Notes under the pieces: generated by a model | The model's input: only the letters and a program-made list of their open reading frames with translations | What the model was told of the DNA's origin: nothing | Database searches by the model: none | Shown here: one piece after another, positions 219 to 23,230 of the stretch | Layout: each line of letters opens with the position of its first letter | Numbering within the stretch: the first letter of the stretch is position 1 | IMG/VR virus record: IMGVR_UViG_3300010885_000968 | Location: 1-23,358 of that record | Source of the DNA: a virus | Direction: 5' to 3' (one strand) | DNA: 23,358 nucleotides | Program-made: the position numbers and the translations under genes

Positions 219-1559
219 ATGTCAAAAGAAATTATTGAAAAACTTGACGCAATTGAAGCAACCAATGTTGCCAAGATTGAAGAAGTTACTGCTCAGACTC
301 AAGCTGCTGTTGAAGCCGCTAAAGCTGAATTTGCTGAAAAAGTGTCTGCATTGGAAGCCAAAGTAGCATCTGTGCAAGCTCCTGCAATTATCAAGATTGC
401 TAAAACTGTTCGCAGCGATGTGAACCGTTCTGTTAAAGAGCAATTGTCTGAATTCTACAAAGGTAATAACCGTGTAGAAAAAGAACTCAAGATGTTTGCT
501 GACGAAAGCCAGCACGATGCATATCTGAAAGAAGCATCTGCCCTTACCGCTGGCGGTGATGGCAAAGGTGGTCGTACAGCTTATGACCCTACTTTTGTTG
601 CATTGCGTTTGGCTAACCCACTGCGCGGTTTGACACGCACTGTTGCTACCGATGGTTCTAGCTATCAATTCCGTGTCAAAACTGGCAATGCTGGTGCTGC
701 ATGGGGTTATGGCATCCAAAACAACGGTACGCCAACAACTGAAGACACAACAATTTGGCAATTGGTTTTGCAAGACTTGAACGTCCAGTTTCCAATCCGT
801 ACTGCGGCATTGGATGACATTGACGGTCTGGAAGCAAACGTGGTTGACGATATGTTGGTTGAATTTGCACAAGCAGAAGCCTTGTCTATGATTCAAAACA
901 ACGACCAAGGCGCTACCAGCTTGCCATACGGCGGTTCTAACGGCTTGCGCGGTCTTGATCAGTACGCAGGTGCTAACAGCACTTACGCTGGCGGTACAAG
1001 CTCTGTAGCAGCATTTGGTACTTCTGGTACTGGTTCCACAAGCGGTTTGCACAGCTTGGCTACCTATGACCAGTTGACATCTAACGCTAACACCGTGGGC
1101 GCTAACTCTATTGTTTACAAAGACGTTATCAACCTGATCTACGCATTGCCACAACAATATTGGACACCTAACACCAAGTTTATGGTTAGCCCAATCTTGG
1201 CACAAGCAATCCGTGGTCTGCAAGATACTAACGGTCGTCCAATTTTCAACTCTGTTGAATCTTTGAACCCCGATGGCATCATTGGTCAGATGTTGGGCTT
1301 TGGCGTTGTGATGAACAAGTATTTGGATACTCCATCGCAAACTTCTACTGGCTCTGCTGGCACTAACAGCTTGTACCCAATGTACTTTGCTGATTGGTCA
1401 CGTTTCCACACTACCATTGACCGTTTGAACATGGTTATGCGCCGCTACGACCAGACATTGCCAGGCTACATTACCTTCTTTGGTGAGAAGCGTTTGGCTA
1501 CATCTGTGCGTGACCCTAACGCTGGTGTGCGTTATCGCTCCACTGGCACAGCGACCTAA
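219..1559 (+). CDS. Major capsid protein, HK97 fold, with N-terminal delta-like region
   Basis: A 446-residue protein, a usual size for an HK97-type capsid precursor. Residues about 1-100 are Ala/Glu/Lys-rich and predicted helical, like the delta domain that acts as an internal scaffold and is removed by the prohead protease. The shell domain begins near residue 106 (ASALTAGGDGKGGRT) and contains blocks typical of the family: ALRLANPLRGL, QFPIRTAALDD and, near the end, LPGYITFFGEKR followed by VRDPNAGVRYR. The ATG at 219 is preceded by GAAAGG about 6 bases upstream. A strong hairpin terminator follows immediately after the gene, as expected for the most highly expressed gene of the virion. 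A closely related paralogue follows at 1626. The fold and role are near certain; cleavage at about residue 100 is inferred. Confidence 0.93.
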   Translation: MSKEIIEKLDAIEATNVAKIEEVTAQTQAAVEAAKAEFAEKVSALEAKVASVQAPAIIKIAKTVRSDVNRSVKEQLSEFYKGNNRVEKELKMFADESQHDAYLKEASALTAGGDGKGGRTAYDPTFVALRLANPLRGLTRTVATDGSSYQFRVKTGNAGAAWGYGIQNNGTPTTEDTTIWQLVLQDLNVQFPIRTAALDDIDGLEANVVDDMLVEFAQAEALSMIQNNDQGATSLPYGGSNGLRGLDQYAGANSTYAGGTSSVAAFGTSGTGSTSGLHSLATYDQLTSNANTVGANSIVYKDVINLIYALPQQYWTPNTKFMVSPILAQAIRGLQDTNGRPIFNSVESLNPDGIIGQMLGFGVVMNKYLDTPSQTSTGSAGTNSLYPMYFADWSRFHTTIDRLNMVMRRYDQTLPGYITFFGEKRLATSVRDPNAGVRYRSTGTAT

Positions 1560-1570
1560 TCGTTGCCAAT

Positions 1571-1600
1571 TGGGTGGGGGGTTCGCCTCCCACCTTTTTC
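1571..1600 (+). terminator. Rho-independent terminator with UUCG tetraloop between the two capsid genes
   Basis: Bases 1573-1581 (GGTGGGGGG) pair with 1586-1594 (CCTCCCACC) to give a 9-bp stem with one G-U pair, closed by a TTCG tetraloop at 1582-1585 and followed at once by TTTTTC at 1595-1600. UUCG loops are exceptionally stable. A T-tract directly after a GC-rich stem is the classic intrinsic terminator. It lies 12 bases after the capsid stop codon and upstream of co-directional essential head genes, so it is probably leaky, or a promoter I cannot identify lies beyond it. Confidence 0.9.
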
Positions 1601-1625
1601 TTGCAACTTAATTTGGATATATAAA

Positions 1626-2654
1626 ATGACCATCACCGAAAAAATCCTCACAGGCATTAAGCAAACACTAGAGACAGGCGATCAAGTCAAAATTGACTTA
1701 CGTGAAGCGTCTGCAATCACAGGCTCTGGTTATGGGGTTGGTGGTCGCACTTATTTTGATGATGCATTTGCGGCTTTACGCTTTGCAAACCCAATTCGCC
1801 AAGTTGCACGAGTAATTCCTGCATCTGGCTCTGCGGTTCAGTTTGTAGCTAAGACGGGTAATGCCGCTAGTTCTACTAACCCTTGGACATACACATTTAC
1901 GCCTAACACTGGCTCACCAGACACTGACACAAGCATTTGGCAATTGCCAACTCGCGTGATCACGGCTCAATTGCCAATCCGATCAGCGGTTATGTCTGAT
2001 GTGAACTATTTGAACGAAACAATCGTAGAAGATTTGGCTATGGAATTTGCGTCTATTGAAGGCGCTTCTATGGTCTTAAACAACGATCAGGCTGGTTCTA
2101 CAACAACCACAACAGGCGGCACAAACGGCTTGCGTGGCTTAAATTCCTACACAAGCGCATCGGCTTCTGCTTATGGCACAAGCGGCAACGCAATTACAAA
2201 CGGCATACATTCAATTGCTACAGTAACGCAAGGTGCGGCGGCAATTAGTTATTCAGACATTACTGACATGGCGCGTTTGTTCCCGCCACAGTACTGGAAT
2301 TCTCCAAATGCGGCTTGGATGATGCATCCACAAACAATTCACAACTTGCGTAACCTTGGCGGCGCTGCTGTCATTAAGCAATTTGCTGAAGTTGGCGATG
2401 GCGATGGCGGCGCAGTTACGCACATTTTTGGATTCCCTGTTATTCCTAACTCCAACATGAGTTTGGTAGGTGCAGGTAACTTCAGCATTTACTTGGCTGA
2501 TTGGTCACGTTTTATGACGATTGCAGATGTTGAGGAAATGACCATTCAAGCAATGGAACAAACAACACCTGGCTTTATTACTCTATATGCTGAAAAGCGT
2601 TTAGTTTCAACTGTTCGTGACCCGTTTGCTGGCATTCGTTTAGTTGGGGTTTAA
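1626..2654 (+). CDS. Second HK97-fold capsid paralogue lacking the delta region
   Basis: I choose the ATG at 1626 (342 residues), because upstream in-frame codons back to a TTG at 1563 run through the terminator hairpin. The protein matches the upstream capsid along the whole shell domain: REASAIT (26-32) aligns with KEASALT (104-110), then ALRFANPIRQ with ALRLANPLRG, QLPIRSAV with QFPIRTAA, LNNDQ with IQNNDQ, GGTNGLRGL with GGSNGLRGL, YLADWSRF with YFADWSRF, and PGFITLYAEKR with PGYITFFGEKR. The offset is 78 residues, exactly the missing N-terminal delta-like region. It is therefore a diverged capsid paralogue that carries no scaffold of its own. It may be a minor shell component or vertex variant, a co-assembled partner, or a relic under weak selection. 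The frame is intact over its whole length and conserved motifs are kept, which argues against decay. Confidence 0.88.
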   Translation: MTITEKILTGIKQTLETGDQVKIDLREASAITGSGYGVGGRTYFDDAFAALRFANPIRQVARVIPASGSAVQFVAKTGNAASSTNPWTYTFTPNTGSPDTDTSIWQLPTRVITAQLPIRSAVMSDVNYLNETIVEDLAMEFASIEGASMVLNNDQAGSTTTTTGGTNGLRGLNSYTSASASAYGTSGNAITNGIHSIATVTQGAAAISYSDITDMARLFPPQYWNSPNAAWMMHPQTIHNLRNLGGAAVIKQFAEVGDGDGGAVTHIFGFPVIPNSNMSLVGAGNFSIYLADWSRFMTIADVEEMTIQAMEQTTPGFITLYAEKRLVSTVRDPFAGIRLVGV

Positions 2655-2656
2655 TC

Positions 2657-3325
2657 ATGCCCGTTGACGCAACTGGCTATTTAAACTACGGAGCGCCTAC
2701 GCGCAATCCGTTTAATTACGCAAAGTTTGAACAAATTTCGCGTGATTCTTCTACGCCTTGGCTGACAATGGCAGAGATAACTAATCAGTTAAACCTGTTT
2801 GACGATACAAGCCAAGACGATTACCTTTATGGGCTTGAATTGGCAACAAGACAAGCTATTGAGGATTATCTTGGGCTGTCTATATTCCCTACGTCTTATC
2901 GCGTATGGTACAACGCTGCCAGTTTGTATGGCGTTCCATTAACTTTGGATTTGCCAGAAGTTAGTCAAAACTTTTACTCAACGCAATCAGGCGTTACGAT
3001 TAATGCGGTTAAATATTGGACGCAAGCGACAATTCCTGTGTTGACAACGGTTTCTGCAAGCACTTACTATTACGACCCATCGGGTAATAAAGTAGTGTTG
3101 CAAACCTTGCCCACAGATTTAAATTCAAGCATGACTAGCCCTGTGTTTTGCGAATACACAACGGCTGCCAACCCAATCTCCAACTATCCTGTAATCAAAC
3201 AAGCGGCATTGTTGTTGTTGACTCATTTATACAACAACCGAAGTGAGACAACAGACAATCAGCTAAAGAGCATTCCTTTTGGCGTGGCTACTTTGCTTCG
3301 TCCGTACAAACCCCTCGTAATGTGA
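2657..3325 (+). CDS. Head-tail connector (adaptor) protein, HK97 gp6 / phiE125 gp8-like
   Basis: A 222-residue protein right after the capsid genes, the usual position for the adaptor that docks under the portal ring. The N-terminal half carries the helical pattern of the family (LTMAEITNQLNLFDD, then YLYGLELATRQAIEDYLG). The C-terminus has the characteristic helix and tail AALLLLTHLYNNR ending in IPFGVATLLRPYK, which matches the 'hW-Y-NRe...P-gv-aLL.pyR' pattern of phiE125 gp8-type connectors. The middle is beta-rich. The ATG at 2657 follows the previous TAA by 2 bases. Family membership is well supported by the C-terminal motif and gene order. Confidence 0.82.
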   Translation: MPVDATGYLNYGAPTRNPFNYAKFEQISRDSSTPWLTMAEITNQLNLFDDTSQDDYLYGLELATRQAIEDYLGLSIFPTSYRVWYNAASLYGVPLTLDLPEVSQNFYSTQSGVTINAVKYWTQATIPVLTTVSASTYYYDPSGNKVVLQTLPTDLNSSMTSPVFCEYTTAANPISNYPVIKQAALLLLTHLYNNRSETTDNQLKSIPFGVATLLRPYKPLVM

Positions 3326-3335
3326 GGCAATGTAA

Positions 3336-9046: not shown

Positions 9047-9636
9047 ACGTAATTGCGCCTGTAGATGGAACAAGCAGCATTAGGCTTGCTGATTTTGTCC
9101 GTGTAAATACTGGTACTGACATTTATCGTTTTACAACGGCTCCATCAAATACATTGGTTTCAGCAGTTGATTCAACGGCGTTTAGTGCTGTTGGCACTTT
9201 GATGAAAATTGGCGATGTTCAGAGAGACATTAAAAGTACGGCAAATGAAACTACTGTTACTTTAATTGGTATTGATACTGCAATGTTGGGTTGGGTTCTT
9301 GGGCAGTCTGTAAAAGGTTCACAAATTGATATGTGGCATGGCTTTTACAACGAAGCTAATCAATTGATTACAACTGGTGGAACTGGTGGTTTGTATCAGT
9401 TTTTTAGCGGCATCATTACATCGTTTACCATCTCTGAAACATGGATGGAAGAAGCGCGTAGTTATGTTGGAACAATCACAATTGCTGCATCTGCAATACA
9501 GTTAATTTTGCAAAACAGGATTGCTGGTCGATACACAAATAACAATTCATGGCAATTTTTTAACAGCACAGACACTTCAATGAATCGTGTAAATTTCATT
9601 GAAACTATCAATTACGAATTTGGTAAGAACGTATGA
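9043..9636 (+). CDS. Minor tail / hub-proximal protein
   Basis: A 197-residue beta-rich protein. It begins with a strand pattern around DIYRFTTAPSNTLV, then GQSVKGSQIDMWHGF and FFSGIITSFTISETWMEE, and ends with QNRIAGRYTNNNSW followed by DTSMNRVNFIE. This resembles DUF2163/gpL-type tail proteins, which describe a 'cell-wall facing' ring and often carry an 'nR.agryt....q......D.sf..v' segment near the C-terminus. Placement between a distal tail gene and the tip genes supports this. It overlaps both neighbours by 4 bases. The exact family is uncertain. Confidence 0.55.
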   Translation: MNVIAPVDGTSSIRLADFVRVNTGTDIYRFTTAPSNTLVSAVDSTAFSAVGTLMKIGDVQRDIKSTANETTVTLIGIDTAMLGWVLGQSVKGSQIDMWHGFYNEANQLITTGGTGGLYQFFSGIITSFTISETWMEEARSYVGTITIAASAIQLILQNRIAGRYTNNNSWQFFNSTDTSMNRVNFIETINYEFGKNV

Positions 9637-10079
9637 TTGTTCGCCAAGCAACCCCATTTGATATCCCTGTGCTTTTAGATATGCTTCGCAGGTATAGGAA
9701 GTTAACTCCCTTGGAGTTTCTTGCTGAAGCTGATGACGCAGAATATATAACCAATTTGTTAACAGAGATGATGGCTGGAAAAGGCGTTGTGCTTGTTGTT
9801 GACAATGATGGTATTGTTGGAATGTTGCTTGCCTCAATATCGCCCAGTATTTGGTCGCCAAAGCATTTTTTAATGACAGAGTTGGCGTATTGGGTTGAGC
9901 CTGAATCTCGCGGCGGTACGGCTGGTTATAGATTGTTAACAGAATACAAAAAAATAGGAATGCAAATGAAAAAAGAAAAACGCATTTGCAATTTCTTAAT
10001 CAGTAAAATGAGCAATAGCCCGAACCTTCAATATCAGAAATTCGGATTTGACAAACTTGAAGAATTTTGGGTGATCTAA
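9633..10079 (+). CDS. GNAT-fold acetyltransferase-like protein in the tail-tip operon
   Basis: A 148-residue protein with the GNAT order of elements: an N-terminal strand and helix (IVRQATPFDIPVLLDMLRR), a strand pair VVLVVDNDGIVGMLLA (about 52-67), a second strand TELAYWVEPESRGGTAGYRLL (82-102) containing the acetyl-CoA loop region, and a C-terminal YQKFGFD (134-140). The loop reads R93-G-G-T-A-G, so the glycine expected at the fourth position of Q/RxxGxG/A is Thr96; catalysis is therefore uncertain. It overlaps the upstream gene by ATGA and abuts the gpJ-like gene, exactly where lambda keeps the NlpC/P60 protein gpK. A structural role, as known for the GNAT-like virion protein of T7, is one possibility. 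Confidence 0.75.
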   Translation: MIVRQATPFDIPVLLDMLRRYRKLTPLEFLAEADDAEYITNLLTEMMAGKGVVLVVDNDGIVGMLLASISPSIWSPKHFLMTELAYWVEPESRGGTAGYRLLTEYKKIGMQMKKEKRICNFLISKMSNSPNLQYQKFGFDKLEEFWVI

Positions 10080-15426: not shown

Positions 15427-17091
15427 ATGGCGACCCAACTGACAATCACCAAAGGGGCTGTCAGCGATGTTGCTGTAACAGTAAATGAGACTGAGGTTTT
15501 AGTTTCTAGTCAACAGAACATTCTTGTTGAAGTTACGCCAGTTGCCCGTCAAGAGATCAATATTGATCACGGGATGATTGGCCCACAAGGGCCGCAAGGT
15601 CAAACGGGCGCTCAAGGGCCGCAAGGTGCAACTGGTGCGGCTGCAACTATTGCGGTTGGCGCTACTACAACAGGGGCGGCTGGAACGCCTGCTGCTGTAA
15701 CAAATACAGGCACATCTAGCGCGGCTGTTTTTAACTTTACGATTCCTCAAGGCATTAAGGGCGACACGGGTAATACTGGGCCAAAAGGCGACACGGGCGC
15801 TACGGGCGCAGGCGTTGCTACTGGCGGCACAACGGGACAAGTGCTTGTCAAAGCAAGTAATACAAACTACGACACAACCTGGACAGCAATTCCTGTTACA
15901 TCGGTAAACGGGCAAACGGGCGCTGTTAGCCTTGGATATGCTGACTTAGCTGGCGCAATTCCTACGTGGAATCAAAACACCACAGGGACTGCGGCAAACG
16001 TTACTGGTGTAGTTGCTATTGCTAATGGCGGTACAGGGGCAATTACGGCTCCTTTGGCTTTAACTGCTCTTGGTGCTTATCCTGCATCTAACCCATCTGG
16101 TTACACAAGTAACACGGGAACGGTAACATCTGTAGCAGCCACGGCAGGTACTGGGATTTCTGTAACAGGAAGCCCGATTACTTCAAGCGGTACGCTAAAC
16201 ATTACCAACACTGCTCCCGATCAAACGGTTGCAATTGCTTCTGGCACTGGTATTTCTGTTACAGGTACTTACCCTAACTTTACAGTAACAAACACAAGTC
16301 CTTCATCTGGTGGAACGGTTACATCTGTAACGGGGACTGCGCCTGTTGTGTCTTCTGGTGGCACAACGCCTGCAATCAGCATGGCAGCCGCCACCGCATC
16401 AGTTAATGGATACTTGACATCAACAGATTGGAATACGTTTAACAACAAAGGCTCAGTTACATCTGTTTCCGCTTCTGCTGGCACTGGTATTTCAATTACT
16501 GGAAGTCCGATTACAAGTAGCGGCACTTTAAACATTACTAACACCGCACCAGATCAAACTGTAGTTTTGACTGCTGGCACTGGTATTTCAACAAGCGGGA
16601 CTTATCCTAACTTTACGATCACTAACACCAGCCCATCGTCAGGCGGCACAGTTACAAGCGTAGCAACAGGTACAGGTCTTACTGGTGGCCCAATTACAGG
16701 TACAGGAACTATTGCAATTGATGCAACGGTTGCCACCTTGACGGGGACACAGATTTTGTCAAACAAGCGTATCGACCCTAGAGTCGTAACCGCAGCGACA
16801 GCCACATCCCTCACTCCAAGCATCGCCACAGCGGACGTATACGCCTATACAGCCCTTGCATCTGCCCTGACCATCAACGCTCCAACAGGAACGCCTCTGG
16901 ACGGTAATAAGCTGATTTTCAGGCTGCTGGACAACGGCACTGCCAGAGCGTTGACTTGGGACGCAACCTATACCGTAGTTGGTACGGTCTTACCAACAAC
17001 CACAGTCATCAACAAGACCACGTATGTTGGATGTATGTACAACACCAACAACACACGTTGGGATGTCATTGCAGTAACTACACAGGCTTAA
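15427..17091 (+). CDS. Collagen-like tail fibre with tandem beta-repeats
   Basis: A 554-residue protein. After about 50 residues come collagen-type Gly-X-Y runs (GPQGPQGQTGAQGPQGATG, about 52-70, and GIKGDTGNTGPKGDTGATG, about 109-127), which would trimerise. IANGGTG follows, then two copies of a module of about 70 residues (DNA about 16120-16325 and 16450-16655) reading GTGIS.TGSPITSSGTLNIT, NTAPDQTV and GTYPNFT.TNTSPSSGG. The C-terminal domain (about 455-554) with YTALASALTINAPTGTP and FRLLDNGTARALTWD, ending in RWDVIAV, is a recurrent phage fibre end domain and the likely receptor-binding or trimer-capping part. Confidence 0.85.
   Translation: MATQLTITKGAVSDVAVTVNETEVLVSSQQNILVEVTPVARQEINIDHGMIGPQGPQGQTGAQGPQGATGAAATIAVGATTTGAAGTPAAVTNTGTSSAAVFNFTIPQGIKGDTGNTGPKGDTGATGAGVATGGTTGQVLVKASNTNYDTTWTAIPVTSVNGQTGAVSLGYADLAGAIPTWNQNTTGTAANVTGVVAIANGGTGAITAPLALTALGAYPASNPSGYTSNTGTVTSVAATAGTGISVTGSPITSSGTLNITNTAPDQTVAIASGTGISVTGTYPNFTVTNTSPSSGGTVTSVTGTAPVVSSGGTTPAISMAAATASVNGYLTSTDWNTFNNKGSVTSVSASAGTGISITGSPITSSGTLNITNTAPDQTVVLTAGTGISTSGTYPNFTITNTSPSSGGTVTSVATGTGLTGGPITGTGTIAIDATVATLTGTQILSNKRIDPRVVTAATATSLTPSIATADVYAYTALASALTINAPTGTPLDGNKLIFRLLDNGTARALTWDATYTVVGTVLPTTTVINKTTYVGCMYNTNNTRWDVIAVTTQA
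16120..16655 (+). repeat. Two tandem protein-level repeats in the collagen-like fibre
   Basis: Copy one spans about 16120-16325 and copy two about 16450-16655, separated by a linker of about 120 bases. They encode nearly the same peptide but use different synonymous codons: in the identical 16-residue stretch at 16183-16230 and 16516-16563, 10 of 16 codons differ, including TCA versus AGT for one serine. Confidence 0.85.
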
Positions 17092-17092
17092 T

Positions 17093-17314
17093 ATGCAAAT
17101 CATTTTTGAATACGACCACAACGGGGCTATTTTTAGGGATGCGTTAAACCTTCCTGACAACCACACGTACACCGATGACGAGCTGGAGGCCATGAAGCAA
17201 GAGCGTATTGCCAACTGGTTGACCGCTATCACAGCACCACCACCAAATTACATGCGTGATGAGCAGGGCGAGGTTGTTTACGATCAGGATGGCAACCCCA
17301 TCCCTGCTGAGTAA
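17093..17314 (+). CDS. Small fibre-associated protein
   Basis: A 73-residue acidic protein starting one base after the fibre stop and overlapping the next ATG by one base (TAATG, 17312-17316). It reads as a strand (IIFEYDHNGAIFRDAL), an acidic helix (DDELEAMKQERIANWLTAI), then a Pro/Asp-rich tail ending DQDGNPIPAE. Like the ORF at 14181, it lies right behind a fibre gene and before another adhesin gene. A role in fibre assembly is a positional inference only. Confidence 0.65.
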   Translation: MQIIFEYDHNGAIFRDALNLPDNHTYTDDELEAMKQERIANWLTAITAPPPNYMRDEQGEVVYDQDGNPIPAE

Positions 17315-20300
17315 TGGCAAACAGATACTGGGTTGGCGGCACAGGTACTTGGAACGGTACAAATACCTTAAACTGGTCTGCCTCATCAGGCGGGGTTGTT
17401 GGTGCGTCTGTCCCAACATCTGCTGATAACGTATTTTTTGACGCCAACTCCAACGTAGGTACGACTGCGTTCACAGTAACGATGTCGACTGTTACTGCGG
17501 TTTGCGCTGACTTTGATGCTACTGCTGTTAACGGTGTAATGACGTTAGCGGGTACGGTTGCGTTTGATGTGTATGGTAGTTTTCGATTGCCAATAACTTC
17601 GCTTTTTACTCGATCTTATTCAAGCACAACTACATTTCGAGCCACAACAACAGGTAAAACAGTAAGTACAAACGGAAATACATTAGCTGCTGTTACTTTT
17701 GATGGCGTTGGAGGTGGCTGGACATTAGCAACTGCACTCACTACACCTAGCCCACTTACTCTTACAAACGGGTCATTAAATCTTGGTGGTTTTACGGCTT
17801 CTTGTTTTTCGTTTGGTTCAAACAATTCAAACATTAGAACATTAGCTTTTAATGGTGGTTCAATATCCTTAGCTGGTACATCTAACACAGGTAACCAAAC
17901 GCTTTGGAGCGTAGCAACCGCAACCAACTTAACAGTCACAGGTACACCGACAGTCAACGTAATTAACAACAGTACCAACTCTGGTTTTACAAGAACATTT
18001 ACCCACGGTGCTACCGCTGGAGGAACTGAACCAAACGCAGTTAACTTGAACATTCAAGCTGGTGATGTTGGCAGTCTTGTAAACGTAAGCGGCGTATGGA
18101 AAAATATAAACTTTACTGGTTGCTCAAGCACACTGTCAAATAGCGCTAGAAACATATACGGCAACTTGGTAATGAGTAGCACCATGACGTTAACTGCTGG
18201 CACAAGCGGAATTTTTTTCGCTCTTACAAGTGGCACTCAACAAATTACAAGTGCTGGATTAAATTTTGATTTTCCAATTGGTTTTGGATATTCTTTTGCT
18301 ACAACAGCAGCATCTGGAGATGGAACAACTGCTACATTAACATTTGCAACGTCTATTCAAGTTATTGCTGTTGGTAGCACCATTGTTGTTTCAGGAGTTA
18401 CTCCAACAGGTTACAACGGTACATACACAGTAACAGCAAGTACCAACTCAACTGTTTCATACGCAAACGCAACCACAGGCGCACAAACTGTAGCAGGACT
18501 TATTGTTAACGGCGGGTCAACAACCTATACGTTGCAAGATGATTTGAGCGTAGGGACAGCAACAAGCAGAACAATTACGCTTAACACTGGCACGCTTAAT
18601 TTAAACAATTTTACGTTGACAAACTTTGGATTGTGGGCATCAAACAATTCAAACACAAGAGCGATTGCATTTGGTACTGGTAATTACACCAACATCTATA
18701 ACGTAGGAAGTGCTGGTGTTTGGGGTATGCAAACCGCAACAGGCTTTACTCTTACAGGAACACCAACTGTTAATATAACAGGCAACCAAAGTGGTGCTGT
18801 TACAAGAACTATATCTCATGGAAATACCGCTGGAGGGTCGGAAACAAACGCTATTACTGTAAACGTGTCAGCAGGTTCAGATACTATTGGTATTAACGGA
18901 TGCTTTATAGATTTAAATCTTACGGGTTTTACTGGAACATTAGCTGGTAACACTAGGTTTATATACGGTAACTTGATTATCAGTAGCGGAACAACCGTAA
19001 CCCCAAGTACATTAAGCACTTCATTTTGCAGAGCAAGCGGAACTCAGCAAATTACAACTAACGCCAAAAACTTAGATTTCCCAATCAACTTTGGATACAA
19101 CCTTACCACAACTGCCGCAACGGGTAACGGAACAACAGCTACTTTAACTATTGGTAGTACACTTAACTGTATTGCAGTAGGTAGCACAATCATTGTTTCG
19201 GGCGTCACTCCAACAGGTTACAACGGCACGTACACGGTAACAGCAAGCACTAACACAACCGTATCGTATTTAAACGCCACAACAGGCGCTCAAACTGTAG
19301 CTGGTTCAGTCGCAAACGCTGGTTCAACAACTTACACATTGCAAGACGCATTAAACGTTGGTTCTGCTGGCGCTAGAAACGTAGGTCTTTCTACGGGCAC
19401 GCTTAATTTAAACAACTTTACATTTACGTTATACGGCAACTTTGCCAGTTCAGTTTCCTATACAAGAACTCTGGCTTTTGGCACAGGCAACATAACAATA
19501 ACTAACACAAACGTAGGGCAAACAATATGGAACTGTGCTCTTGCGACCAACCTAACCGTCACAGGAACTCCAACAGTTAACGTCACGGGCGCTGTGCCAT
19601 CAGGGACTACACGATTTATTAGCCACGGACAAACTGGTGGCGGCACAGAAGCAAACTCTGTGTCGTTCTATATTAGCGCTGGTGCAGAGCCTTTTACCAT
19701 TCAAGGGTTTATTCGCAATCTTGACTTCACGGGATACACAGCGGCATTAAACAACAGCGCAAGAACAGTTTACGGCAACCTGACGCTTTCATCGGGCATG
19801 AGTTTGGTTGCTGGAGCGAACACAACAACATTTGGTTCAACCAGCGCAACTGTCCGAACAATAACTACTAACGCTCAGAACTTAGATTTCCCCATCACTT
19901 TTAACGGCGTGGGCGGCTCATGGCAGTTGCAAGATAACTTGGCTTGTGGGACTTCTGCTCTTAGATCAATGACTTTGACAGCGGGGACGCTCGATCTCAA
20001 TGCTTCCAACATAACTTTGTTTGGTACATTTACTGGCACTGGGTCGACTGCAAGAACAATTGCCTTTGGTACAGGTCAGTTTTTCTTGACAGGTACGTCA
20101 GGTTCATTGTGGAGCGTAACTGGAACCAACCTGACAATTACAGGAACAAACCCAACGATTACCGCAAACGCAAACGCATCTAGTGGCGAAAGAACTTTTT
20201 CTCATGTGCCTACCACGGTTGCAGAAAACCTTGCAATTAACATGAACTTCACCGCTGGCAGTGCCGACCTTGGTTTTAGTGGTGGCATTCAGTTGGTTAA

Positions 20301-21195
20301 AAGCATAAACTTTACTGGATTTACAGGTAGGGCTGGTAACGCAGGATTGTCTTCTGCGCCGCAATTCAACATATACAACAACATGACCTTTAATACTGGC
20401 ATGACGTTGATTGCGGGTAATATTGCTTTTGCTTTCAGAGGCTCATCAGGCACGCAGGTGCTTACATCAAATGGCGTAACGATAAACTCACCCATAAATT
20501 TTGGCACAGGAACAAATACCACAACAACATATCAGTTGGCAGACGCTTTAACAGTGGCAAGCGATAAAGCTATTACTTTATCTAGCGGAATTTTTGATTC
20601 AAACGCCAAATCAATTACCACGGGAACTTTTAGCTTTGGTAGCGGCAACACAAAAACATTAACGCTTACAAACAGTTCTATAACAATCACTGGCGGCACA
20701 TCCACAACAGGATTTACTGGGTCAACAACTGGAACATCATATAACTTTACTGGTACTGAGATTGTTTTTACAACTTCTTCAGCAGCAGCGCTTGCGGGTA
20801 TAAGTACGTTTGTTCCAGATGCGATTGTCACAATGTCTGGCACGGGAACTTTAACCATAGGCTCCACCAATCAGGCCATAACACTTAAAACTTTAAGGAA
20901 CACCGTTCAACCCTGCACAATTTCTTTGCTCAGTACGGCAAACTCATTAACCGTCACCAACTTCAACTTGAGCGGAACGGCGGGCAACTTGGTGACCTTT
21001 AACAGTAGCGTGGCTGGTACGGCAAGGACAATCAACAAAGCCAGCGGAACGACCAACGCTTACTACATGAACATCCAAGATTCAACGGCTACGGGCGGTA
21101 CGTGGAACGCATACAATTCGACCAACAGCGGCAACAACACTGGTTGGAACTTCCTGACCGCAAACAGCGGAAACTTTTTAATGTTTTTTAATTGA
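17314..21195 (+). CDS. Giant repetitive tail adhesin (1293 residues)
   Basis: This is the largest gene here. It begins MANRYWVGGTGTWNG...NW and PTSADNVFFDA, an N-terminal motif seen in many phage and environmental repeat proteins, with no signal peptide. Residues about 125-1060 consist of tandem units marked by NLDFPI.FG...TLQD.L.VG....R, then TGTLNLNNF, a GTPTVNVTG turn, ISHG.TAGG, YGNL..SSG and SGTQQITTNA. Two middle units each hold an extra domain of about 70 residues with IVVSGVTPTGYNGTYTVTAS. The composition (Thr, Gly, Asn, Ser; almost no charge) suggests a beta-solenoid. The C-terminus (about 1230-1285, TTNAYYMNIQDSTATGG and GNNTGWNF) is a common fibre end domain. A tail location is inferred from context. 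Confidence 0.78.
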   Translation: MANRYWVGGTGTWNGTNTLNWSASSGGVVGASVPTSADNVFFDANSNVGTTAFTVTMSTVTAVCADFDATAVNGVMTLAGTVAFDVYGSFRLPITSLFTRSYSSTTTFRATTTGKTVSTNGNTLAAVTFDGVGGGWTLATALTTPSPLTLTNGSLNLGGFTASCFSFGSNNSNIRTLAFNGGSISLAGTSNTGNQTLWSVATATNLTVTGTPTVNVINNSTNSGFTRTFTHGATAGGTEPNAVNLNIQAGDVGSLVNVSGVWKNINFTGCSSTLSNSARNIYGNLVMSSTMTLTAGTSGIFFALTSGTQQITSAGLNFDFPIGFGYSFATTAASGDGTTATLTFATSIQVIAVGSTIVVSGVTPTGYNGTYTVTASTNSTVSYANATTGAQTVAGLIVNGGSTTYTLQDDLSVGTATSRTITLNTGTLNLNNFTLTNFGLWASNNSNTRAIAFGTGNYTNIYNVGSAGVWGMQTATGFTLTGTPTVNITGNQSGAVTRTISHGNTAGGSETNAITVNVSAGSDTIGINGCFIDLNLTGFTGTLAGNTRFIYGNLIISSGTTVTPSTLSTSFCRASGTQQITTNAKNLDFPINFGYNLTTTAATGNGTTATLTIGSTLNCIAVGSTIIVSGVTPTGYNGTYTVTASTNTTVSYLNATTGAQTVAGSVANAGSTTYTLQDALNVGSAGARNVGLSTGTLNLNNFTFTLYGNFASSVSYTRTLAFGTGNITITNTNVGQTIWNCALATNLTVTGTPTVNVTGAVPSGTTRFISHGQTGGGTEANSVSFYISAGAEPFTIQGFIRNLDFTGYTAALNNSARTVYGNLTLSSGMSLVAGANTTTFGSTSATVRTITTNAQNLDFPITFNGVGGSWQLQDNLACGTSALRSMTLTAGTLDLNASNITLFGTFTGTGSTARTIAFGTGQFFLTGTSGSLWSVTGTNLTITGTNPTITANANASSGERTFSHVPTTVAENLAINMNFTAGSADLGFSGGIQLVKSINFTGFTGRAGNAGLSSAPQFNIYNNMTFNTGMTLIAGNIAFAFRGSSGTQVLTSNGVTINSPINFGTGTNTTTTYQLADALTVASDKAITLSSGIFDSNAKSITTGTFSFGSGNTKTLTLTNSSITITGGTSTTGFTGSTTGTSYNFTGTEIVFTTSSAAALAGISTFVPDAIVTMSGTGTLTIGSTNQAITLKTLRNTVQPCTISLLSTANSLTVTNFNLSGTAGNLVTFNSSVAGTARTINKASGTTNAYYMNIQDSTATGGTWNAYNSTNSGNNTGWNFLTANSGNFLMFFN
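17690..20640 (+). repeat. Tandem repeat array inside the giant adhesin
   Basis: Unit starts judged by the 'DFPI.F' or equivalent segment fall near 17690, 18258, 19069, 19879 and 20476, giving units of about 570, 810, 810 and 597 bases and a last partial one. The two 810-base units share an insertion of about 72 codons (around 18300-18515 and 19110-19325). The copies are diverged, mostly at third codon positions. Confidence 0.82.
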
Positions 21196-22300: not shown

Positions 22301-22790
22301 TTTATTCAATTTGCTCAAAGGTATCGCCCCGACATTGGCGACAGCGGTTGCTGGGCCATTGGGCGGTGCTGCCGTTAGCGCTTTGGCTACTAAGTTTGGC
22401 GTTTCTGATTCTGTTGAGGCTGTGGCTAAGGCTATATCGGGCGACCCTGCGGCTGCACAAAAGCTGGCAGAGTTGGAGTTGGAATATGCCAAGCTAGACA
22501 TGGCCAACACCGCTGATGCTAGAAACATGAACAGTAAGATTCAAGAATCTGAAAATGCTTCATGGGTAGCCAAAAACGCGGCTTACATCCTTGATTTTGC
22601 GATTGTGAGTGCAACCATCATCATGACTTGGATTGTGTTCTTTAAGGGCGTTCCTGTTGAGAATAAAGAGATTGCATATATGGCCATCGGTTCGCTGATA
22701 ACCATGTGCGGTACTGTGTTGAACTTTCACCGTGGTTCATCTGCTGGAAGCAAGTCTAAAACCGAAGAGATGATGAGGGCAGTCAAATGA
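22290..22790 (+). CDS. Holin, 3-TM type (GTA-holin-like)
   Basis: A 166-residue protein from the first of two adjacent ATGs (22290, 22293) with AAAGGAAA just upstream. It has a Gly/Ala-rich N-terminal hydrophobic segment (about 8-32, IAPTLATAVAGPLGGAAVSA), an acidic helical linker (KLAELELEYAKLDMAN), then two membrane helices (YILDFAIVSATIIMTWIVFF, about 96-115, and AYMAIGSLITMCGTVLNF, about 129-146) and the basic tail HRGSSAGSKSKTEEM. This follows the pattern of the 3-TM holin family known from gene transfer agents and many phages. It overlaps the endolysin by 4 bases (ATGA), the classic holin-endolysin pairing. Confidence 0.8.
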   Translation: MMNDLFNLLKGIAPTLATAVAGPLGGAAVSALATKFGVSDSVEAVAKAISGDPAAAQKLAELELEYAKLDMANTADARNMNSKIQESENASWVAKNAAYILDFAIVSATIIMTWIVFFKGVPVENKEIAYMAIGSLITMCGTVLNFHRGSSAGSKSKTEEMMRAVK

Positions 22791-23230
22791 ACTTAACACC
22801 ACACTTTACGCTTGAAGAACTTACGCATACCGACCACCGTGAGTTTGACAACACGCCTAATGATTCAGAGTTGGCTAACCTAGTGCGCTTGGCTGACTTT
22901 TTAGAACAAGTCAAAGTCGTTTTAGGCGGCAAGCCAATCATGGTTAATTCGGCGTTTAGGTGTAAACAGGTCAATGACGCTGTGGGTTCTAAAGACACAA
23001 GCCAGCACCGTATTGGTTGCGCTGCTGACATTCGTGTGCCAGGCATGACACCAGATCAAGTTGTGAAGGCCATCATTGCGTCTGGCATTGCTTACGACCA
23101 AGTGATTCGTGAGTTTGAAACGCCAACAGGCGGCGGTTGGACACACATTTCTATTCCAAATACTGTTGCAACAGCACCACGCAAACAAGCTCTTATCATT
23201 GATAAAGCTGGCACACGCGCTTATTCATAA
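22787..23230 (+). CDS. Endolysin, peptidase M15 family
   Basis: A 147-residue protein with the full set of M15-type zinc and active-site elements: SAFRCKQVNDAVGS (55-68), TSQHRIGCAADIRV (71-84) giving ligands H74 and D81, and GGWTHISI (116-123) giving H120. Members cleave peptidoglycan peptide cross-bridges (D-Ala-D-Ala carboxypeptidase or L-Ala-D-Glu type endopeptidase). The N-terminus FTLEELTHTDHREF is the common start of the single-domain phage forms. There is no signal peptide or wall-binding domain, so export depends on the holin. The ATG at 22787 overlaps the holin stop. Confidence 0.92.
   Translation: MNLTPHFTLEELTHTDHREFDNTPNDSELANLVRLADFLEQVKVVLGGKPIMVNSAFRCKQVNDAVGSKDTSQHRIGCAADIRVPGMTPDQVVKAIIASGIAYDQVIREFETPTGGGWTHISIPNTVATAPRKQALIIDKAGTRAYS

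Follow-up and report, generated by a model that had tools for sequence, protein, structure and literature searches.

Tandem HK97-fold capsid genes separated by a conserved terminator in mostly uncultured freshwater phages: a probable hexamer and vertex pair comparable to T4 gp23/gp24

According to a review of the T4 head, a separate vertex protein is an exception among well-studied phages (PMC9958956). In T4, gp23 loses 65 residues and gp24 loses 10 when their propeptides are removed, and gp24 is located at 11 vertices (PMC9958956). The two proteins are adjoining HK97-fold paralogues, of which the second is shorter and has a much smaller N-terminal propeptide. A hairpin with a T-run lies immediately 3′ of gene 23, before segD and gene 24. 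In HK97, a single capsid gene (gp5) serves hexamers and pentamers, the gene order is terL, portal, protease (gp4) and capsid, the capsid protein carries an N-terminal delta region, and a terminator is annotated after gene 5. The T=7 heads of HK97 and P22 contain 415 copies of the capsid protein (PMC10052503). In the Rhodobacter capsulatus gene transfer agent (RcGTA), one and the same protein makes up the hexamers and the pentamers (PMC7296036), so a head can in principle do without a second subunit. The Family 2B encapsulins (Enc1/Enc2) are adjacent HK97-fold paralogues that are conserved as a pair and fall into phylogenetically distinct groups; these proteins form cellular compartments with an irregular mixed tiling.

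In this study, we analysed a viral DNA record of 23,358 bases, referred to as the window, the 5′ end of which falls inside a prohead protease gene. The missing left end is supplied by an almost identical contig (L003/L083; 38,787 bases), and in it the large terminase, the portal, the S78 prohead protease and the capsid genes A and B follow one another, which is the order of HK97 with a second capsid gene added. The portal (PF04860) and the protease (PF04586) directly upstream of A identify an HK97-type head module. The features of the window that concern us are as follows.

1-216, + strand: prohead protease (Peptidase_S78, PF04586), C-terminal end only; the full gene of 259 aa lies at L083 3730-4509 (PF04586, 2.1e-10)
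219-1559, + strand: capsid protein A, 446 aa, with an N-terminal delta-like region of ~105 aa and an HK97 shell domain (PF05065, 6e-26; PHROG 10, major head protein)
531-539, + strand: L-x-E-A-S motif of A, codons E105-A106-S107, proposed maturation cleavage site
1572-1600, + strand: intrinsic terminator between A and B, with a 10-pair stem, a UUCG loop and a T-run; kept in relatives
1626-2654, + strand: capsid protein B, 342 aa, with an N-terminal segment of ~27 aa and an HK97 shell domain (PF05065, 1.1e-24)
1704-1712, + strand: L-x-E-A-S motif of B, codons E27-A28-S29, proposed cleavage site
2657-3325, + strand: head-tail adaptor (gp6-like), the next head-operon gene after B (PHROG 40, 1e-13; PF05135)

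Beyond the adaptor, Pfam and PHROGs identify tail genes. The tail gene cluster includes a GNAT acetyltransferase-like protein (9633-10079; PF00583, 6e-5), and the large protein encoded just 3′ of it corresponds in position to the host-specificity J gene of Methylophilaceae phage P19250A. Two further tail-region proteins of 1293 and 554 aa (17314-21195 and 15427-17091) have no Pfam match, and a Peptidase M15-type protein (22787-23230; PF08291, 1e-14) is probably the endolysin.

The original prediction, made from the letters of the window, was that positions 219-2654 hold tandem capsid paralogues in two intact frames, and both statements stand. A and B are HK97-fold capsid proteins: they score 91.9 and 87.7 bits against Pfam Phage_capsid, for which the curated cut-off is 24.2, and BLASTP aligns them with 139 identities in 344 positions (40%, E 3e-73). 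The alignment begins at A103/B25, which reproduces the 78-residue offset that had been claimed; the offset is not constant, because A has extra residues relative to B at about 253-260, 286-289 and 380-382, and later offsets vary. The start of B also had to be moved, since the open reading frame call begins at TTG 1563, inside the terminator-bearing spacer, and the start kept in relatives is ATG 1626. The nearest solved structure is the RcGTA capsid (Rcc01687; profile match 3e-7), which, unlike the present pair, is the only capsid protein of its head, an oblate one derived from T=3. It is also the top Foldseek match (6tb9, E 4e-13) of the predicted model of B, and the same low-confidence model (pLDDT 56) matches HK97 prohead I with an E value of 1e-11. 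The AF2 model of A is poor (pLDDT 44, pTM 0.30), and the family membership of A rests on sequence profiles. Both models were limited by their input alignments, which consisted of close relatives.

Loci were collected through four viral-contig scans, in which the A and B proteins of both the window phage and P19250A served as queries, and one genome-contig scan. Each locus was retrieved through a match to A or to B, and the second gene was never a requirement. The search for the pair in other genomes, which the original prediction had recommended, was productive: in all 227 loci long enough for both, A comes first and B second, on one strand. Sixteen loci show a single gene, and in these the contig is cut at an end there, as it is in the fragment-only loci. 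Some loci overlap on the same contig, and 158 distinct full-length pairs remained after the removal of duplicates and fragments. The viral-contig scans with divergent queries found no close relative with a single capsid gene. The carriers form a large group of siphovirus-type tailed phages of ~38 kb from fresh water, most of them uncultured. A single clear homologue, P19250A (KX815270), stands out among 50,697 phage records, and it is the only isolate found with the capsid pair. Its genes 0005 and 0006 are 63% and 53% identical to A and B in the same order, and gene 0004, upstream of them, matches PF04586. Among the matches listed for the P19250A terminase, no further relative exceeds about 33% identity, which indicates that the two-capsid group is almost wholly uncultured. 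We found no description of the A/B pair in the literature, and a mention in the original P19250A paper is possible. The finding also fills an annotation gap: hundreds of viral contigs carry a B-type gene, whereas that of the isolate (0006) is annotated as a hypothetical protein and its A-type gene (0005) as a gene transfer agent capsid.

Purifying selection on A and B is equal. Pairwise Nei-Gojobori estimates at dS 0.1-1, for pairs that are not independent, gave a median dN/dS of 0.13 for A and 0.12 for B with a maximum of 0.42, and the median ratio of dN in B to dN in A was 0.96 over shared genome pairs. The relaxed selection on B (dN/dS near 1) that had been named beforehand as refuting the prediction was not observed. 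A maximum-likelihood tree of 41 representatives places A in one clade (support 95/97) and B in another (93/85); therefore, the duplication is older than the sampled diversity. The grouping of A with B has a support of 92/77, and because the outgroup branches are very long, this grouping and the root are only fairly supported. We reject a recent or foreign acquisition of B, since A and B are by far each other's nearest relatives among the phage capsid proteins found, and the single clade formed by each also argues against it. The tree of A and that of B conflict at some points (L001, L084, L105 and others); for example, L084 is the sister of the window in the A tree and not in the B tree. Such conflict suggests recombination near the spacer between related phages, which would explain it.

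The new element of this locus is a conserved intrinsic terminator that separates A from B. In the window, the spacer of 66 bases contains a hairpin at 1572-1595 followed by a T-run, with a z-score of -3.66. A strict rule of hairpin plus T-run, applied to 144 distinct A-B spacers, was satisfied by 128 of them with 91 different hairpin sequences, compared with 0 of 133 sequences just 3′ of B and 30 of 720 shuffled spacers. In most of the remaining 16 spacers a hairpin is still visible, but its T-run is weaker or its stem is larger or interrupted. The sequence of the terminator turns over, and its position and form stay. A terminator in such a place is commonly read as parting an abundant shell protein from low-copy genes, and B would lie on the low-copy side. 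Moreover, the fraction of NNY codons ending in C is 0.53 in A and 0.38 in B and is higher in A in 150 of the 158 pairs, which would rank the expression of A above that of B if, as we assume, codon bias reflects expression level in the hosts of these phages. Taken together, terminator and codons speak for B as a minor component of the shell rather than for two subunits on an equal footing. Because HK97, with its single capsid gene, also has a terminator after that gene, the terminator suggests unequal supply and does not by itself suggest a vertex location.

The N-terminal regions differ in a manner that recalls T4. Approximately 105 residues precede E-A-S in A and approximately 27 in B, so the statement that B lacks the delta scaffold region was slightly too strong, although its segment is far shorter. 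The loss of 65 and 10 residues in T4 is the same asymmetry. A long helix predicted at residues 2-50 of A (AF2 model, pLDDT 44) is what would be expected of a delta-type scaffold. Both N-terminal segments end in L-x-E-A-S, which we propose, from its conservation, as the maturation cleavage site of both proteins. E-A-S is nearly invariant across the 158 distinct pairs: E105 is present in 158, A106 in 150 and S107 in 155, and in B E27 is present in 158, A28 in 156 and S29 in 155. In addition, a D-x-x-G-R-x-I-F loop, at a position that we take to be the capsid axial domain, has a strict match in 84 of 158 A sequences and in 0 of 158 B sequences, and occurs in similar form in HK97 and other phage capsid proteins. 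Its absence from B is expected if the place of B around the symmetry axis differs.

Overall, we consider it probable (about 0.6) that the locus encodes an independent HK97-type two-capsid system in which A forms the hexamers and B is the minor subunit of the pentameric vertices, an independent counterpart of T4 gp23/gp24. We infer presence in the virion, vertex location, cleavage, stoichiometry and T=7 geometry from the genes. A and B would be two subunits of one shell, with A the major one: the N-terminal region of A would act as a built-in scaffold while its shell domain makes hexamers, and the protease encoded upstream would probably cut this region off at L-x-E-A-S. B would hold the vertices and depend on A for assembly, and its own short segment may be clipped at the same motif. 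The terminator would let less transcription through to B and the connector genes, which would leave A in excess. If the head is T=7, which we assume as in HK97 and P22 with genomes of similar length, the copy numbers would be about 360 for A and 55 for B. What the original prediction made of the pair is partly borne out: the paralogues are ancient, stay side by side throughout a large phage group and are under purifying selection, and terminator and codons point to a minor B. The decoration-like role that it also offered is less likely because B keeps the whole HK97 shell domain.

The main rival is a shell in which A and B co-assemble at mixed capsomer positions and B tunes stability or curvature, as two-component HK97-fold encapsulins of Family 2B do (PMC12407261). 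Seventy alignment columns are conserved and identical in both proteins, so many contacts may be common to A and B. However, the ancient and universal separation of the A and B clades and 20 shell-domain columns fixed differently between them suggest distinct, fixed roles, and the expression of the two genes appears to be unequal. We therefore consider mixed capsomers unlikely. The locus is a phage head-tail operon, which rules out its identity as a two-component encapsulin.

A similarly unlikely alternative is that B, instead of being a regular subunit of the shell, is a low-copy capsid protein for a special purpose, acting for example around the portal vertex or solely during assembly. The location of B beyond the terminator and next to the connector genes would suit this role, but its HK97 shell domain is complete and its constraint equals that of A. 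Very unlikely, in our opinion, is the reversed assignment, in which B forms the hexamers or is the subunit in greater supply, and A chiefly carries the scaffold or sits at the vertices. B does look like a mature capsid protein trimmed in advance; nevertheless, terminator and codon bias both point to more A, the axial-loop motif of other phages is kept in A and not in B, and A is the more conserved of the two (mean column identity of 87% versus 79%). Finally, B as a decaying duplicate or an annotation artefact without a role is refuted by the selection test (dN/dS about 0.12) and by its intact frame in every sufficiently long locus, and we give it almost no credence.

As in T4, two adjacent HK97-fold paralogues are conserved together (227/227 loci, two clades). 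However, T4 is a myovirus with a prolate 170-kb head, a separate scaffold, the gp21 protease and a gp23/gp24 pair of ~20% identity, whereas the phages described here have an S78 protease, the delta-like region within A and a far closer pair in a much smaller genome. No T4-type record was present among the tblastn matches listed for A (all phages, E up to 10), and neither A nor B matched a T4 capsid chain in profile searches of the PDB. Because no sequence homology to gp23/gp24 was found, the likeness to T4, to the extent that the anatomy reveals it, is a functional parallel and not membership. We think it slightly better than an even chance that a dedicated vertex capsid protein was invented independently in this small siphovirus-type lineage, with the subunit ratio set by the terminator. 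If true, this second, independent case would show how hexamer and pentamer roles part after gene duplication, and small phages with a built-in scaffold would allow the question to be tested in a far simpler setting.

In one relative (L004), the A-B spacer is 585 bases long and contains, after the terminator, an open reading frame of 180 aa (L004:5462-6001), at the position of the GIY-YIG homing gene segD between T4 genes 23 and 24. Its N-terminus appears GIY-YIG-like by eye (FYTYI...PFYIGKG), and Pfam did not confirm the homing-endonuclease reading. In Rhizobium phage RHph_X2_25 (L248), a homing endonuclease gene (2481-3329) lies directly 3′ of a single capsid gene.
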